The notes beneath the pieces are model-generated. The model saw only the letters and a program-made list of their open reading frames with translations, was not told where the DNA came from and did no database searches. This document shows, piece by piece, positions 1 through 32,710 of a DNA stretch of 64,000 nucleotides; the first letter of the stretch is position 1, and each line of letters opens with the position of its first letter. Position numbers and translations under genes: made by a program. The DNA is from Botrimarina mediterranea (lineage in GTDB: Bacteria; Planctomycetota; Planctomycetia; Pirellulales; Lacipirellulaceae), in the NCBI RefSeq assembly GCF_007753265.1, contig NZ_CP036349.1, forward strand, positions 1,645,363-1,709,362, read 5' to 3'.

Positions 1-934
1 TGATCATCGTGATCGCGGCCGGTCCCACCAGCACGACGAAGATTGCCGGGAAGATGAAGATCACCAGCGGGAAGATCAGCTTCACCGCGGTCTTGGCGGC
101 CTTCTCTTCGGCCATCTGACTGCGGCGTGTCCGCATCGAGTCACTTTGCACGCGTAGTGCCTGGGCGACGCTCGAACCGAACTTGTCGGCCTGGATCAGA
201 ATCGCCGCCAATGCCTTCAAGTCATCCACGCCGGTACGCGAGCCGAGCTCCGATAGCACCTCGTTGCGTGGCGAACCCATCTGCAACTGCAAGTTGCACA
301 GGGCGAACTCCTCGGCGAGGACGCCGTAGGATTTGCGCATCTCTTCACTTACCTTCCGCATCGCCTGGTCGAGACCAAGGCCCGCCTCGACGCAGACGAC
401 CATCAGGTCCAGCGCGTCGGGAAGGCCGTAGAAGATGTTGTCCTGGCGCGACCGCTTCATGAACCAGACGGCGACGTCCGGCAGGAAGAACATCACGCCC
501 GCGGCGGCGACCGTGATAATCGCCGCGTCGACGGTCAAACCCTTGGTGAAGTAAGCGGCGCCGCCCCCGGCGAGGAAGCCAAAGCCGAGGCACAACAGCT
601 TAGTTCCGAGGAAGACGCTGATCGAAGACTCGGTGCGGAAGCCGGCATGCGCGAGCCGCTGCTTGAGCTTGCCCGCCTCTTCCTTGGTCTTCGGTTGCAG
701 CGGCGCAGCGATGGTCGGCGTGGCACGCTCGATGAGCTTCGCCATTTTGTCCGATTGCTTGCGTTCACGACCCGCATTGCGACCGCCCGGGTCGCGTAGC
801 TCTTCGAGCCGCTCGCTGGTGCGTTCGTTCCCCGATCCACCAAAGAACTCCAATGCAAACCACATCGCTGCGGCCACCGCGCCGAACACGGCGAGTTTGA
901 CCATCAGAGCGGTGGACATGAGGGCGAGGACCAT
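1..934 (-). CDS. tadC: TadC, Tad pilus inner-membrane platform protein (3' end beyond window)
   Basis: The frame reads leftward off the window edge; 311 codons are visible and no stop is reached, so the C-terminus is missing. It is a GspF/T2SSF-type inner-membrane platform protein that works with TadB and the TadA ATPase to assemble the Flp pilus. A hydrophobic helix lies near residues 6-25 and a pair of helices follows near 105-145. The helical T2SSF core contains LPDALDLMVVCVEAGLGLDQ. The last visible residues are a hydrophobic segment (LIFPLVIFIFPAIFVVLVG). The ATG at 934 touches the palindromic spacer after tadB; an in-frame ATG at 919 is an alternative. It is last in the visible tad gene order, as in other Tad loci. 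Confidence 0.9.
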   Translation of the reverse strand, partial: MVLALMSTALMVKLAVFGAVAAAMWFALEFFGGSGNERTSERLEELRDPGGRNAGRERKQSDKMAKLIERATPTIAAPLQPKTKEEAGKLKQRLAHAGFRTESSISVFLGTKLLCLGFGFLAGGGAAYFTKGLTVDAAIITVAAAGVMFFLPDVAVWFMKRSRQDNIFYGLPDALDLMVVCVEAGLGLDQAMRKVSEEMRKSYGVLAEEFALCNLQLQMGSPRNEVLSELGSRTGVDDLKALAAILIQADKFGSSVAQALRVQSDSMRTRRSQMAEEKAAKTAVKLIFPLVIFIFPAIFVVLVGPAAITMI

Positions 935-1033
935 GAGTCAGCAGTGGGCAGTGGGCAGTGGGCAGGAAAGTTCAGCAGAGAGTGGAGGGGTCCTTGGCAA
1001 GACTGCCGACCGCCCACCGTCCACTGCTGACTC
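935..1033. repeat. Palindromic spacer between tadB and tadC
   Basis: The arms GAGTCAGCAGTGGGCAGTGGGC (935-956) and its near reverse complement (1012-1033) differ at two positions and enclose about 55 bases. The arms are built from a GTGGGCA heptamer. It fills the whole tadB-tadC gap. It could form an mRNA hairpin that tunes expression inside the operon (inference). The tadA-tadB gap holds a related sequence. Confidence 0.75.
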
Positions 1034-1035
1034 CG

Positions 1036-2013
1036 TCATATCCTGATATTCACGATTTTCTGAATGACAACCGCTCCTAACAGCTGCATCACGATTCCGC
1101 CGATGAGCATTTTCTTGCCCAGGTCGTCGGTGAAGAGCAGCATTAGGTAGTCGGGGTTCATACGGTAGACGGCGGCGAACAGTGCGGGCGGCAGCGCTAA
1201 CAGCACGATGCCCGACAGGCGGCCTTCGCCGGTCAACGCTTGGACCTGGCCCCAGATCTTGAAGCGTTCGCGGATGAGGCGGCCGATCTTGTCGAGGATC
1301 TCCGCCAAGTCGCCACCGGTCTGACGCTGCAAGACGACCGCCGTGGCGAAGAACTTGAGGTCGAGGTTTGGGACGCGTTCGGTGAGGTTCTCGAGAGCTT
1401 CTTCGAGCGGCATGCCGAGATTCTGCTCCTCGAAGCAGCGGCTGAACTCCTGGCAGATCGGCGGCGACATTTCGGCGCCAACGAGGTTCATGCCCGCGCC
1501 GAGGCTATGGCCGGCACGCAGGGCGCGCGAGATGAGCTCGAGCGCCTCGGGGAGCTGGGCGGCAAACCGCTTCATGCGGCGCTTCCGCTTCATGATCAGC
1601 CACGCGAACGGGATGAAAACGAAGACGGCTGAACAGATCGGGGCGAACTTGATCGGTAAACCGAGCGTTGTCGGCGCAAAGAAGCCTATCAAGGCCGCTC
1701 CGACGCACGCCATCAGGAACTGGCTGACGCTGAACGACACGTCCGCCTGCAGGAACAGTCGCTCGAGATTCAGGTGGTTGGCGATCGCTTGCTCGAAGGC
1801 GCCGGCGCCGCGGTCCCAAGTCTGGGCCAGCAGTTCGGTGTCACTCTTTCCCTTCTCCTTGCCGCCGCGGCCAAGGCCGCCCTTACCGGTGGTAAGCGCG
1901 CTGAGTCGGTCCTCGACATCGGCTTCTTTGTCGCCCCCCCAAAGCATCGCCACAGCAATCACCAGTCCAGTGACGCCGCCGAAGACCAGAAGGGAGATAA
2001 TGAGGGGAGACAT
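1036..2013 (-). CDS. tadB: TadB, Tad pilus inner-membrane platform protein
   Basis: The product is a 325-residue GspF/T2SSF-family membrane protein of the Flp pilus machine. An N-terminal helix (residues 3-24) is followed by a charged Gly/Lys-rich linker (about 40-60). Paired membrane helices lie near 100-140. The T2SSF core starts at FAAQLPEALELISRALRAGH (about 150) and includes a GGDLAEILDKI motif. Two C-terminal helices end in VVIQKIVNIRI. TadB and TadC are thought to form the hetero-oligomeric platform driven by TadA. It lies between tadA and tadC on the same strand, with palindromic repeats on both sides. The family call is firm; TadB rather than TadC follows from gene order. Confidence 0.93.
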   Translation of the reverse strand: MSPLIISLLVFGGVTGLVIAVAMLWGGDKEADVEDRLSALTTGKGGLGRGGKEKGKSDTELLAQTWDRGAGAFEQAIANHLNLERLFLQADVSFSVSQFLMACVGAALIGFFAPTTLGLPIKFAPICSAVFVFIPFAWLIMKRKRRMKRFAAQLPEALELISRALRAGHSLGAGMNLVGAEMSPPICQEFSRCFEEQNLGMPLEEALENLTERVPNLDLKFFATAVVLQRQTGGDLAEILDKIGRLIRERFKIWGQVQALTGEGRLSGIVLLALPPALFAAVYRMNPDYLMLLFTDDLGKKMLIGGIVMQLLGAVVIQKIVNIRI

Positions 2014-23708: not shown

Positions 23709-23784
23709 GGCGAGCCGGGGACGTTAGTCCTCGGTGTGCAGCGGGTACTCGGGTTCCTCCGAGGACTAACGTCCCCGGCTCGCC
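23709..23784. repeat. GGCGAGCCGG-family palindrome, copy 1
   Basis: Perfect 26-base arms (23709-23734 and 23759-23784) begin GGCGAGCCGGGGACGTTAG. They enclose a 24-base loop that contains GCAGCGGGTACTCGGGTTC. It lies between divergent genes, so it is not simply a terminator. The loop word recurs in the copies at 27138, 45396 and 50685. Confidence 0.92.
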
Positions 23785-23944: not shown

Positions 23945-26900
23945 GTGATTGCGACCCCTCTTCCGGAACCGTTCTTCTCGATGACAACCCTCGTCCGTGT
24001 TGCCGCTACGCTAGTCGCTCTCCTCGCTTGGACCCCGGGATTGCGTGCGCAGCAAATCAAAGCCTTCCCTCAGGCCGAGGGTTACGGTGAGAACGCCCGT
24101 GGGGGCCGTGGCGGGGACGTTTACCACGTCACCAAGCTCAACGACGATGGTTCGGTCGGCACGTTGCGCTACGGCATCGAGAACGCTCCCGGCGCGGGGC
24201 GGACGATTGTCTTCGACGTCGGCGGGTGGATCAACCTGAATAGCAAGCTTGGCGTCACCCGCGACAACATCACCATCGCAGGCCAGACGGCGCCGGGGGG
24301 CGGCGTCGGAGTAAAGGGGCATCAGTTCTCCGTCGGCGCCGACAATATCATCGTCCGCCACATGCGCTTCCGCCCCGGCAAGGGCGCGGGCCGTGTGGAC
24401 TCGATCAGCGTCTCCAGCGGCCACGACATCATCTTCGACCACATCTCGGCCGGCTTTAGTTACGACGAGAACGCCTCGGCCAACGCCACCAGCCGCGGCG
24501 GCGTCTACAACCTCACCTTCCAGCACAGCGCCATCGCGTATGGCCTCGAAGACCACTCGGCCGGTTCGCTAATCCAGAACGTCAACAACCTCAGCTACCA
24601 CCACAACCTCTACGCCCACAACCACACGCGCAATCCCAAGGCCCGCGTCGAAGGCGACGGCATGGATTGGGTCAACAACGTTGTCTACGACTACAACAAC
24701 GGCTTCATCGCCGGCGACTCGGACACGACCGATTACTTCTGGAAGGTCAACTTCGACGGCAACTACTACATCACCGGCCCCGGCGATGGCGGCCGCCCCA
24801 TGATCAACAGCGGCCGCGAACACAACTACGGCCTCTACTTCGGCACGAACGCCTACGACAACGACGGCGACGCCCAGCACGACGGCGTGATCTACACCGG
24901 CGAAGATCGCCGCACATTAACGAACGTGGTGACAGGTACGTACACTTGGTCAGAAACGCGTTACGGCACGAAGGACGTGTGGCAAAGCGAAACGCCGCAG
25001 GACGCCTACGAGCGCGTCCTTGCTAACTTCGGCGCCACGCCATGGAACCGCGATGAGGTCGACCAGCGAACGCACGACAACGTCGTCAACCGCACCGGTT
25101 CGCTGATCACACGCGAGAGCGACTTGGCTGGGATTTCCAACGGGGGCTTTGGGACACTCGCCGCCGGCTCTGCGCCGAACGATCGCGACAGCGACGGCAT
25201 CCCCGACGAGTGGGAAAACCGCCACGGCACGAATCCGCTCTCCCCGAACAACAACGGCGATTTCGATCAAGACGGCTACACCGATCTTGAAGAGTACCTG
25301 AATGACATCGCCGCCTCGAAGGCTATCGGCGTGCTCGACTTCAGCGGCGTCGGCCGCTACGCCGACTGGGGCCGTTGGACGCGGCAGTGGGAGCCCTCGC
25401 GGCTTGACGACGTCCGCGTCGCCACCGGCGCCGCGTTCGTTGATGCGGTGGGGCAGAAGGCCGGCTCGCTCTTCATCGGCGGCGCGCCGAGTAGCAATGG
25501 CCGCTTGTACGTTACCAGCGGCTGGATTGAAGTGACCGATAACCTCGTCGTCTCCGGCGCTGGGCGCGTCGAGCAACACGGTGGTGAGACTCGCGTTCTC
25601 AATGGCGGCGTCGAGGTCGAAGGGGGCGCTTACCGGCTCCTCGGCGGCGAACTTTCGACGCCATCGCTGACGATTTCTTCAACCGCCGACTTCGAGTTCA
25701 AGGGCGGCGTTCTGGCGACGGACGAGATTGACGGCGACATCCTCAACCAGGGCGGCCGGCTTGAGATTGGCGCCGCCGGCGCAACGATGGCGATACTCAA
25801 CGGCGACCTGGCTCTGAGCGCCGGCGTTCTGGCGGTTGAGCTTGATTCAGCCAGCAATGCGGACGCGCTGCTGGTGAGTGGCGACATCGTTCTCGGTGGC
25901 GTCCTCGACGTGACGACCCTTGGGTCCTACGTCCCCGCAAACGGCGCGAGGTGGGCGATCCTCGGCGGCGCGTCACTTACGGGCGCCTTCGAGTCGGTGA
26001 CGCCGGGCTTTTCGATAGAGGAAATCGACAACGTCCTCTGGCTCGTCGCCGGACCCGGCGCGAGCCAGAGTGTGCCGGAAACGACCGGCGTCGTGCTCGT
26101 ACTCGGTGCGGCCACTCTGCTGCTCGTCGCGCGCCGCCGTCCCACAGCCGCTTGCGGCTTAGCGGCGGCCCTTACGCTCTCGCTCACCGCGTCAGCCCAA
26201 GCCGTCACCATCGCAACCATCGCCGACGCCCAGCTCAGCGAGAACGGCACAACTGGCCTTGGCGACGCGACCGACAGCGGCTCCGGCACAGGCTCCTCGC
26301 TCAACGCCCGTTGGAACTACGCCAGCACGCCGTCCAACCGCAACGAATGGATCGCCCTGAAGTTCGACCTCAGCGCCTACGCCGACAAGTCGCGGCTCAA
26401 CAACGTCTCGCTGCGGCCGACCATGTTCCGCGGTAATGCGAACAACTCGCAAACGCTCCGCCTCTACGCCCTCACTCCTGGAACGGCCGGAGAAGACTGG
26501 AACGAATCAACGATCACCTACGGCGCGATGCCCGGGTTCACGTTCGACAGCTTCTCGACAACGAATCTTCTCAACGTGGGCGGGCCCTTGGTGGACCTCG
26601 GCAACTTCGGCTACTCGGGCTACACCGGCGAAGGGAACGTTGGCGTCATCAACCCTGCGTCGCTGACGAATCTTGTGCAGTCGATGGGCGACAACGACTT
26701 GTTGACGCTGCTCGTCTCTTACGGCGCTTCGGCCAACGGCCAGTGGCGGATCGCGTCGCGCGAAGCGACCGCGACGGAGACCAGCGCCCTCACCGGACCT
26801 GCGGGCACGTTCGCCGCCAGACTCGACTTCGATGTCACCTACGGCGGCGTGCTTGGTGACTACAACGACGACGGCGTCGTTGACGCGGCCGACTACACCG

Positions 26901-27097
26901 TCTGGCGTGACAGCGGCTCGGCGCCCCTCCCCAACGAAGAAGTCTCTCCCGGCGTCAACGACATCGCTGATTATCTCTACTGGGCCGAGCGATACGGCGC
27001 CACCGACACCGGCCTACCCGCCACAGCCGTCCCCGAGCCGGCAACGCTATTGATGATCGCCGCGGTTGCGGCCGGCAACCTGAGCCGTCGGCGTTAG
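23945..27097 (+). CDS. Fused secreted protein: pectate lyase with PEP-CTERM, then internal signal peptide, DNRLRE-like, dockerin and second PEP-CTERM
   Basis: One 1050-residue frame holds two exported proteins in series. Part 1 has a signal peptide (about 13-36), then a PL1 pectate-lyase domain (about 38-330; AFPQAEGYGENARGGRGG, RTIVFDVGGWI, ITIAGQTAPGGGV). A TSP3-like Ca segment (DRDSDGIPDEWENRHGTNPL) and a beta-rich region follow. A PEP-CTERM signal starts at residue 710 (VPETTGVVLVLGAATLLLVA, then RRR). Part 2 begins directly with a signal-peptide-like stretch (about 733-756, CGLAAALTLSLTASAQA). It continues with a DNRLRE-like domain, dockerin motifs (GDYNDDGVVDAADYTVWRD) and a final VPEPATLLMIAAVAA tail. 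The junction carries a copy of the dispersed 20-bp repeat (26147-26166), which suggests a recent fusion of two genes. No good start codon with a ribosome site was seen for part 2. Confidence 0.88.
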   Translation: MIATPLPEPFFSMTTLVRVAATLVALLAWTPGLRAQQIKAFPQAEGYGENARGGRGGDVYHVTKLNDDGSVGTLRYGIENAPGAGRTIVFDVGGWINLNSKLGVTRDNITIAGQTAPGGGVGVKGHQFSVGADNIIVRHMRFRPGKGAGRVDSISVSSGHDIIFDHISAGFSYDENASANATSRGGVYNLTFQHSAIAYGLEDHSAGSLIQNVNNLSYHHNLYAHNHTRNPKARVEGDGMDWVNNVVYDYNNGFIAGDSDTTDYFWKVNFDGNYYITGPGDGGRPMINSGREHNYGLYFGTNAYDNDGDAQHDGVIYTGEDRRTLTNVVTGTYTWSETRYGTKDVWQSETPQDAYERVLANFGATPWNRDEVDQRTHDNVVNRTGSLITRESDLAGISNGGFGTLAAGSAPNDRDSDGIPDEWENRHGTNPLSPNNNGDFDQDGYTDLEEYLNDIAASKAIGVLDFSGVGRYADWGRWTRQWEPSRLDDVRVATGAAFVDAVGQKAGSLFIGGAPSSNGRLYVTSGWIEVTDNLVVSGAGRVEQHGGETRVLNGGVEVEGGAYRLLGGELSTPSLTISSTADFEFKGGVLATDEIDGDILNQGGRLEIGAAGATMAILNGDLALSAGVLAVELDSASNADALLVSGDIVLGGVLDVTTLGSYVPANGARWAILGGASLTGAFESVTPGFSIEEIDNVLWLVAGPGASQSVPETTGVVLVLGAATLLLVARRRPTAACGLAAALTLSLTASAQAVTIATIADAQLSENGTTGLGDATDSGSGTGSSLNARWNYASTPSNRNEWIALKFDLSAYADKSRLNNVSLRPTMFRGNANNSQTLRLYALTPGTAGEDWNESTITYGAMPGFTFDSFSTTNLLNVGGPLVDLGNFGYSGYTGEGNVGVINPASLTNLVQSMGDNDLLTLLVSYGASANGQWRIASREATATETSALTGPAGTFAARLDFDVTYGGVLGDYNDDGVVDAADYTVWRDSGSAPLPNEEVSPGVNDIADYLYWAERYGATDTGLPATAVPEPATLLMIAAVAAGNLSRRR
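26147..26166 (-). repeat. 20-bp dispersed repeat, copy in the fusion junction
   Basis: The plus strand reads GCCGCTTGCGGCTTAGCGGC, the reverse complement of the word found at 32006, 38630 and 45749. In frame it encodes AACGLAA, exactly where the first PEP-CTERM tail ends and the second signal peptide begins. Confidence 0.9.
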
Positions 27098-27137: not shown

Positions 27138-27213
27138 GGCGAGACGGGAGCGTCAGCGACCGGAGGGAAGCGGGTACGTTGTTCCCTCCGGTCGCTGACG
27201 CTCCCGGCTCGCC
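27138..27213. repeat. GGCGAGCCGG-family palindrome, copy 2
   Basis: 32-base arms (27138-27169 and 27182-27213) have one mismatch and enclose a 12-base loop GCGGGTACGTTG. It lies between the convergent fusion and MFS genes, where it probably also ends transcription. The outer ends (GGCGAG.CGGGAGCG) and the loop match the family. Confidence 0.9.
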
Positions 27214-31441: not shown

Positions 31442-32710
31442 ATGCCCCGCATTCTTCGAATCCCCCGACTTCCCGCTCCGTTGCGGACGCGATTGCGCTG
31501 GCTGGTCGTGGGCGGCGTGCTAGCAGCGATGGGCGGCAACTTCGTATGGCGTCTCGCCGACGCCCACCTCAAGGCCGAGGCGGCGCGGCAGACGCTCGCC
31601 GGCGAGAGTGCGGCGGTCGTGGCGATGCGGGACGATTGGTGCCAGCATGTCGTCCCGGTCGCAATCACCGAACCCGGCGAGGCAGGCGACGCGGCTCGTA
31701 CAGCGGCGGCGGCAAGACTCAACTACGCCGTCTCGCGCGCGACGCGGGGCGACGAGAAGCTACTGCGCCAACTCGCGCCCCAAGTGCTCGCCGCCATCCG
31801 AGCGATCGAGGGAACGCCAACGGACGAAGGCGGCCGTTGGGGCGAATGGGTGCTGCGGCGGATGTCGGCGGCGATCGAGGCGTTGCCCCTCAGCGAGCGG
31901 GTGGCCCTGCTCAAGGAGATCGACGACACGCTGGTGGTGCTCTCGGAGACGCCGCGGCTCGAGCCGGTGGCGCCGCAAGTAGCGATTGTGGAGACGCCGC
32001 CGGTCGCCGCTAAGCCGCAAGCGGCTGACGTTACGGCGGCGGCAGCGCCGCCGGCTTATGAGATGGTTGTCCGTCCGGCGCCGCCGGAACCGACGCCAGC
32101 GCCTCAAGCGCAGCAGACCCTGCCGGCCATGCCTTCGCTGCGAGAGGTTGCGTCGCAATGGCGCCGGCCCGAACGCCAGTTGCCGACCGAGCCAACCGAA
32201 CCCGCCGAGCCGGCGCCCCTCGACCAAGCCGCGGTGGCGCCGGCGGACCTTGAGGACCGCGAGCTGTTGGGCGAGGCGCTGCGGATCGAGAGCCTGCTCG
32301 CCATGTCGGCCGATGGCTCGCCGCAGGCGATGGGCCCGTCGCGGGTCCCGATGCCGCTCAATGAGAATGAGGCGGAGACGCGCGGTCGTCTCGACGCGGT
32401 CCGTCGCGAGCTCGTCGCCCGCGGCTACGCCGGCGTTTCACGCCAACAGGTCGAAGGGCTGCTGCTGCCCGACGCCCGTGAGCGGGCGGCGTTCGTCGAA
32501 AGCCTGCTCACCGACCGCAGTGGCGACCCGGCGCGGGTGCTGCTGCTGATGGCCGGTGATGAGTCGCCCGAAGTCCGTGCCGCCGCGATCTCGGCACTCG
32601 GCGGCTCGTCAAACCGAGCGCTCGTCACCAAGGCGCTCGAGCTAGCGATGCGAGATCAGGACTTAAGGGTCGGCCGATTAGTCGAGCCGATCCGAGAGCG
32701 GCTGCGCTAA
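31442..32710 (+). CDS. Membrane-anchored protein with C-terminal HEAT-like repeats
   Basis: The product has 422 residues. A basic N-terminus is followed by one helix (about 20-37, VVGGVLAAMGGNFVWRL). A helical region to about 165 and a Pro/Ala-rich linker (about 175-260) follow. The C-terminus resembles HEAT/armadillo repeats (LLMAGDESPEVRAAAISALGG). No enzymatic motif was seen. The linker includes AAKPQAA, which is coded by a copy of the 20-bp dispersed repeat at 32006-32025. Confidence 0.65.
   Translation: MPRILRIPRLPAPLRTRLRWLVVGGVLAAMGGNFVWRLADAHLKAEAARQTLAGESAAVVAMRDDWCQHVVPVAITEPGEAGDAARTAAAARLNYAVSRATRGDEKLLRQLAPQVLAAIRAIEGTPTDEGGRWGEWVLRRMSAAIEALPLSERVALLKEIDDTLVVLSETPRLEPVAPQVAIVETPPVAAKPQAADVTAAAAPPAYEMVVRPAPPEPTPAPQAQQTLPAMPSLREVASQWRRPERQLPTEPTEPAEPAPLDQAAVAPADLEDRELLGEALRIESLLAMSADGSPQAMGPSRVPMPLNENEAETRGRLDAVRRELVARGYAGVSRQQVEGLLLPDARERAAFVESLLTDRSGDPARVLLLMAGDESPEVRAAAISALGGSSNRALVTKALELAMRDQDLRVGRLVEPIRERLR
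32006..32025 (+). repeat. 20-bp dispersed repeat inside a coding region
   Basis: The sequence is GCCGCTAAGCCGCAAGCGGC, identical to the copies at 38630 and 45749. Here it is in frame and encodes AAKPQA(A) in the linker of the membrane protein. Confidence 0.9.

Follow-up and report, generated by a model that had tools for sequence, protein, structure and literature searches.

The 64,000-nucleotide stretch of Botrimarina mediterranea DNA analysed here (the window) carries on its forward strand a gene whose product places two complete export-and-sorting units one behind the other in a single reading frame. We read this gene, with a probability of roughly 0.65, as coding for a secreted polyprotein, that is, two exported and sorted proteins that would be made as one chain and then cut apart. 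The serial layout had been proposed in a first-pass annotation of the window; it is confirmed by the open frame and is more than a chance arrangement, since full-length homologues show it too, as do dozens of further proteins. The annotation also held two mature surface proteins to be conceivable, which is the best reading of the gene, although the cutting is something that we only infer.

The junction between the two units

The frame runs from GTG 23945 to the stop at 27097 without internal stops and encodes 1050 residues. ATG 23981 (residue 13) is the likelier start than GTG 23945, as it would yield an ordinary-looking signal peptide, MTTLVRVAATLVALLAWTPGLRA; signal peptides were judged by eye throughout, and signal peptidase sites were called by motif and not by a predictor. 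The first unit closes with a tail that reads VPETTGVVLVLGAATLLLVARRR. The second signal-like stretch follows it and ends in T-A-S-A-Q-A, with A-Q-A occupying residues 751–753. In a low-confidence predicted model, helices at residues 713–729 and 733–754 are joined by a turn at residues 730–732. The junction profile scores 46.9 bits on this junction, the window being one of the rows from which the profile was built.

Within 26040–26400, the only in-frame ATG, GTG or TTG codons are GTG 26072 and GTG 26093, both inside the first tail, and no further in-frame start codon was found in 26093–26400. The second signal peptide would therefore be made solely within the longer chain. Separate translation of unit 2 from an internal start, for which the two GTG codons provide candidates upstream of the internal signal, is highly improbable, because initiation at either codon would place a hydrophobic helix ahead of the RRR. 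Over the 99 junctions described below, some ATG, GTG or TTG codon occurs in 48 linkers, which would leave room for such starts, but none is possible in the other 51 and ATG occurs in just 17.

Grammar and spread of the junction

A first profile, built from five junctions, was searched in 43 genomes of the host's family, the host genome included, and yielded many more matches free of stops. Forty stop-free and mostly long-spanning candidates were picked by hand among the matches listed for this profile. All 40 fetched candidates read PEP-helix-basic-helix by eye, and a script found such a junction in 39 of the 40 loci (L084 did not fit the motif of the script and counts by eye only). Profile A2 was then made from 52 of the 57 junction rows found by the script, after manual removal of five (a further junction apiece from L058, L059, L075, L086 and L088, mostly with long linkers). 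At E ≤ 1e-10, A2 gave 92 matches, up to 52 of which were rows of the model itself, in 28 of the 43 family genomes and 13 of 14 genera. None of the 92 contains a stop, and each spans at least 50 of the 71 profile positions. For this group, these counts contradict the first-pass view that an internal sorting signal followed by an internal signal peptide is rare. The host genome has eight stop-free junction frames including the window gene, each with two units. They belong to a set of at least 148 matches to the profile at E ≤ 0.01, the majority of which cover the tail part only (150 of 548 first-look candidates scored). The per-genome scans, in which at most 30 or at most 15 candidates were scored, include tail-only matches, and their counts are not prevalence figures. 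Beyond the order, a junction is also seen in two genomes (L122 and L123).

The grammar of the junction was read from 99 junctions in 65 open frames. These features are partly built in where the script's definition of a junction demands them, namely a PE motif, a hydrophobic stretch and two basic residues. The loops contain 401 arginine or lysine residues against 4 aspartate or glutamate residues; because at least two basic residues were required per junction, the near-absence of acidic residues is the sole free result for the loops. The median linker, measured from where the basic part begins to the top-scoring hydrophobic window, is 8 residues. An A-x-A motif lies behind the internal helix in 74 of the 99 junctions, a share that is somewhat biased upward because the loci were found by profiles of mostly A-x-A junctions; 1000 shuffles gave a mean of 47.8 and a maximum of 60. 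The motif occurs in 30 of 53 N-terminal signals of the set, a control that excludes six cut-start loci and uses a crude hydrophobicity window, and behind the PEP helix itself in 32 of 99. The third motif position is P in at least 90% of 52 rows, though the script's motif permitted other letters, and at E ≤ 0.01 PF07589 recognises 43 and TIGR02595 37 of the 52 junction segments. Judged from these sequence features, the junction follows the rules of a membrane hairpin.

A hairpin of this kind could also belong to a single uncut, multiply anchored surface protein, in which the internal helix pair would tether both domains and neither would be released. The topology works without any cut, PL-CBM96-dockerin proteins in a single chain and without a junction occur in the host genome and in G009, and PEP-CTERM models pass over the first tail of the window protein. 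We nevertheless regard this arrangement as rather unlikely. A-x-A is no rarer with the internal helix than with the N-terminal signals, and P is kept at the third motif position; a mere anchor would require neither. Moreover, the fused units of another chain, L008, exist as separate genes in a relative.

Age and turnover of the fused state

Across 39 searched genomes, the host included, the sole other full-length match to the window gene within one frame is that of G023 (58%). Two full-length homologues were found in the public genome collection: L116 from Aeoliella straminimaris (NZ_JAMXLR010000036.1) and L115 from a Pirellulales metagenome-assembled genome (JALHQZ010000002.1). L116 was taken to be the G023 match itself, with which it agrees in the 1063-residue frame and the junction. 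The window protein is 56–61% identical to L116 and L115 across 1040–1049 aligned positions, and the junction is common to all. The motif-helix-basic-helix order and the small residues ahead of the predicted cut are kept in all three proteins, at a junction identity of 27–41% compared with about 55% in the flanks. PF07589 recognises the equivalent internal tail in L116 (30.1 bits for the whole protein, best stretch 713–735) and in L115 (28.3 bits, best stretch 707–729). The whole-gene synonymous distance (dS) between the window gene and these homologues is 1.3–1.8, near saturation, and the open frame is therefore either old or has been re-made repeatedly. The first-pass annotation had considered a recent fusion through loss of a stop codon the simplest origin, which a junction shared at this distance does not support.

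The same comparison rules out an error of sequencing or assembly, or a very recent loss of a stop, at 26050–26250, since homologues from other genomes have the same junction; we give this explanation practically no weight. One of the homologues lies on a named contig of 648,615 bp, and the host genome is one contig. The third-position GC fraction is 0.78 at 26051–26251 versus 0.82 across the whole frame, and seven further frames of the host genome have stop-free junctions.

Relatives of unit 1 occur in both fused and single form. A 1091-residue paralogue at the L014 locus of G023 has the same first unit and junction, with a laminin-G domain in unit 2. This locus (G023:C20:22000–38000) also shows a 1381-residue frame in which an internal PEP-CTERM/signal junction connects a pectate lyase to a GH28 polygalacturonase. 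The three next-nearest homologues of unit 1 (L016–L018) have a single unit closed by a PEP-type tail; that of L018 reads PEL and was left unscored by the junction script. In the single forms, the dockerin and the tail come directly after the beta-rich stretch, a layout from which loss of the middle block through an internal deletion is easy to picture. The unit-1 tree intermixes four fused and three single forms, with at least three changes among the seven labelled rows, and would reflect either repeated fusion or repeated loss of the middle block. A single origin of the fused forms is not supported by this tree.

By script count, the 65 frames hold two units in 48 cases, three in 12, four in 2 and seven to nine in three. 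L095 encodes 2531 residues with ten PF07589 stretches in a frame that is open at the contig edge, and L096 (G086:C14:26000–38500) is a single 2382-residue frame with seven PF07589 and six FGE-sulfatase stretches, arranged as complete exported units in tandem; both belong to other members of the order. The genome behind the long frames of L095 and L097 is incomplete (81%). The three-unit chains L068, L088 and L114 represent three genera and can be aligned over almost their whole length at 45–48%. L099, another two-unit chain, has near-full-length matches at ≥38% identity in seven genomes including its own, and the junction is present in all seven; an eighth match, in one frame of G013 (32%), stands outside the seven in which the junction was seen. 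In the L099 homologue L112 (G001:C9:117000–122500), the full-length match contains a TAG. The open junction frame starts near query residue 386, and the TAG is therefore upstream of the junction, in unit 1.

The units of L008, a beta-helix protein and a pectate lyase, are separate genes in the host genome, with 69% and 51% identity, respectively. At the host loci L118 and L121, a PEP-CTERM tail and a stop are followed within about 40 codons by a new ATG in the same frame and a signal-like stretch; these look like unfused pairs in one frame. At L120 the next signal-like start sits in another frame. The loci viewed with a stop in the junction comprised five of the host genome and L113; L113, L117 and L119, and also L025, gave no clear reading. 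Unit number varies even within one genus, from two (L087) to three (L091). As a case that would refute its view, the first-pass annotation had named orthologs in which a stop codon precedes an independently started second half. This case is realised in part, by the single-unit L016–L018 and the separate L008 pair.

The separate L008 genes, the stop-bearing pairs, the variable unit number and the mixed unit-1 tree would all be expected of a tolerated, largely neutral read-through fusion, in which topologically harmless junctions arise often and persist by drift and cutting is optional. We consider this improbable, as the junction is conserved across genera at saturated dS with its signals intact, three-unit chains retain their layout over three genera, and frames exist with 7 and 10 tails. 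The units can instead be read as gene-equivalents whose fused state is old or recurrent and no recent accident.

Several observations weigh against a chain that is cut into sorted proteins, and the first concerns the window gene itself. Searches with PF07589 and TIGR02595 did not report its VPET first tail, and the 32-residue segment alone gave weak MYXO-CTERM and GPS-CTERM matches under their cut-offs. The first-pass description of a PEP-CTERM tail ending in RRR holds for the motif-helix-RRR layout, but the motif reads PET and no PEP-CTERM model reports it here. As an unrecognised VPET variant, the window copy may be a weak exosortase substrate, and exosortase may not act on this tail at all. 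A-x-A is absent from 25 of the 99 junctions, in a set enriched for it in the way described above, and one of the nine internal tails of L095 has no signal-like stretch behind it. At E ≤ 1e-10, 15 of the 43 family genomes have no A2 match, and in an even sample of the phylum a match occurs in 2 of 391 other genomes (at most 15 candidates scored per genome). On the unit-1 tree, the fused state appears to have been gained or lost, and hence would not be indispensable. The nonsynonymous distance (dN) of the junction is 1.4–2.9 times that of the flanks in eight pairs, which fits signal helices but weak constraint as well. In favour of the chain, junction dN/dS is estimated at 0.10–0.51 in the six of these pairs for which junction dS was computable.

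Domains, proposed processing and meaning of the chains

The features of the window gene are collected in Table 1. The pectate lyase named in the first-pass annotation is similar to a solved pectate lyase, 9buj_A, which is the closest solved chain to unit 1 (phmmer, E = 1.4e-26), but no curated Pfam or NCBIfam cut-off is passed: PelZ gives E = 3.2e-27 with 95.4 bits against a curated cut-off of 840, and Pfam pectate lyase models have no match in the window protein at E ≤ 1. The TSP3 repeat passes the cut-off of PF18884 in both full-length homologues. The predicted model of the window protein has a mean pLDDT of 38, too low to support a fold search, with block means above 70 solely in the beta-rich region. 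Unit 2 scores 19.3 of 26 bits with PF24517 (CBM96) and 22.7 of 34 with NF033679 (DNRLRE), and L116 lies over the DNRLRE cut-off (35.7 versus 34 bits). The dockerin motifs of the first-pass annotation are visible by eye (GDYNDDGVVDAADYTVWRD) and conserved in the homologues, but the Pfam dockerin model PF00404 has no match in the window protein at E ≤ 1. The C-terminal tail, VPEPATLLMIAAVAAGNLSRRR, with a VPEP-helix-RRR layout, exceeds the cut-offs of PF07589 (22.3 bits, cut-off 20.7) and TIGR02595 (19.6 bits, cut-off 16). Exosortase (PF09721) is above cut-off in 18 of 19 genomes searched, the host genome among them. Two exosortase matches, G001:C2:93067–93819 and G026:C58:16917–17675, lie inside open frames of about 1750 codons, which represent either a fused exosortase or a chance long frame.

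Table 1 Features of the window gene, in window coordinates.
Feature	Position	Residues	Strand	Basis
Putative two-unit export polyprotein gene	23981..27097		+	Stop-free open frame; alternative in-frame start further upstream at GTG 23945
Unit 1 N-terminal signal peptide	23981..24049	13–35	+	By eye from translation; homologues align there
Pectate-lyase-like catalytic domain	24062..24784	40–280	+	phmmer to PDB 9buj_A; NCBIfam PelZ below cut-off
Bacterial TSP3 repeat	25181..25246	413–434	+	Pfam PF18884, 23.2 bits, cut-off 25
Beta-rich region	25340..26044	466–700	+	Strand pattern in predicted model
Unit 1 internal PEP-CTERM-like tail (VPET, hydrophobic helix, RRR)	26072..26140	710–732	+	Sequence
Unit 2 internal signal peptide, predicted cut after A-Q-A	26141..26203	733–753	+	Sequence, linker without start codon, junction profile
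Dispersed 16-base repeat copy in internal signal peptide	26148..26163		+	29 genome copies, 0 in reversed control
CBM96/DNRLRE-like domain of unit 2	26276..26770	778–942	+	PF24517 and NF033679, both below cut-off
Dockerin-like stretch	26855..26992	971–1016	+	Motif by eye, conserved in homologues
Unit 2 C-terminal PEP-CTERM tail	27029..27094	1029–1050	+	PF07589, TIGR02595

The 16-base repeat of Table 1, CCGCTTGCGGCTTAGC, whose genome counts refer to the host, occurs in the window also at 32009, 38633, 38653, 45752 and 55049, and many of its copies lie within long open frames. Two copies are located in the internal signal peptides of two-unit proteins, the window gene and L099, where they encode AACGLAA. 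A repeat-driven fusion was rejected for L099: its same-genus homologue L112 has the junction without the repeat peptide, and the repeat therefore did not make the L099 junction. Inverted repeats, identified by eye, flank the window gene at 23710–23784 and 27146–27205, and the core of the downstream one, GTCAGCGACCGGAGGGAA, has 12 copies in the host genome.

Chains with internal signal peptides are known elsewhere. In bacteria, the cytochrome b/c1 precursor FbcH of Bradyrhizobium contains an internal signal peptide and yields two proteins by cleavage, and viral polyproteins use internal signal peptides, alternating stop-transfer and restart helices and cuts by signal peptidase. The window gene resembles FbcH in its single frame, which has neither a stop nor a start at the junction, and in the A-Q-A motif behind the internal helix. 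FbcH, however, comprises two respiratory subunits without sorting tails, whereas the chains described here join many different surface proteins in up to about ten units. Unlike viral polyproteins, they are products of cellular bacterial genes, and their units have exosortase-type tails of their own. The NCBIfam entry NF033207, 'midcut-by-XrtH protein', suggests by its name alone an exosortase-type signal inside a protein; it is a single named family and matches 3 of 52 junction segments weakly (best E = 0.0042). Each unit corresponds to the PEP-CTERM/exosortase (EpsH) system in having a signal peptide and a motif-helix-basic tail, and exosortase genes are present. According to the passages on tail position in Haft et al. 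(2006, PMC1569441), the PEP-CTERM tail sits at the C-terminus 'virtually without exception', and a few proteins with much longer tails are suspected to be non-functional. In contrast, the internal tails reported here are conserved, occur in large numbers and precede a signal peptide. No prior report of serial PEP-CTERM units was found among the matches listed in open-licence literature; the parts are known, and their serial use has apparently not been described before.

We infer the membrane topology, both cuts and the benefit of the chain as follows. Signal peptide 1 would start Sec export of the pectate-lyase unit, and the internal PEP-CTERM-like helix would stop transfer and leave the RRR on the cytoplasmic side. 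The 21-residue internal signal peptide, which has no start codon of its own, would borrow this RRR as its basic n-region and restart export for unit 2. Signal peptidase I would cut behind A-Q-A (residue 753), freeing unit 2 with its C-terminal tail, and exosortase would act on both tails. The products would be two surface or released proteins in a fixed 1:1 ratio, plus a small two-helix remnant. The mechanism most likely joins established steps, namely stop-transfer, signal peptidase and exosortase, in series. The gain would be equal co-secretion, from one start site, of surface proteins that cooperate in acting on polysaccharides, such as the lyase and its carbohydrate-binding partner in the window or the pectate lyase and the GH28 polygalacturonase of L014.

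Beyond the window, we lean slightly towards the view that Planctomycetes of the host's order run a general secreted-polyprotein strategy, in which chains of two to about ten complete export-and-sorting units would be translated whole, threaded into and out of the membrane and cut by signal peptidase and exosortase into separate surface proteins, so that one gene would stand in for an operon of secreted proteins. The serial tails run counter to the positional rule for PEP-CTERM tails given in those passages of PMC1569441, and to the idea put forward there that tails at internal sites do not function. The chains also offer a direct test of exosortase cutting, because a cut at an internal tail would separate two proteins that are distinguishable on a gel. 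If the polyprotein reading is true, annotation would misread how many genes and surface proteins these planctomycetes have, as well as their domain architectures, and one 'giant multidomain protein' would in fact be several surface proteins.

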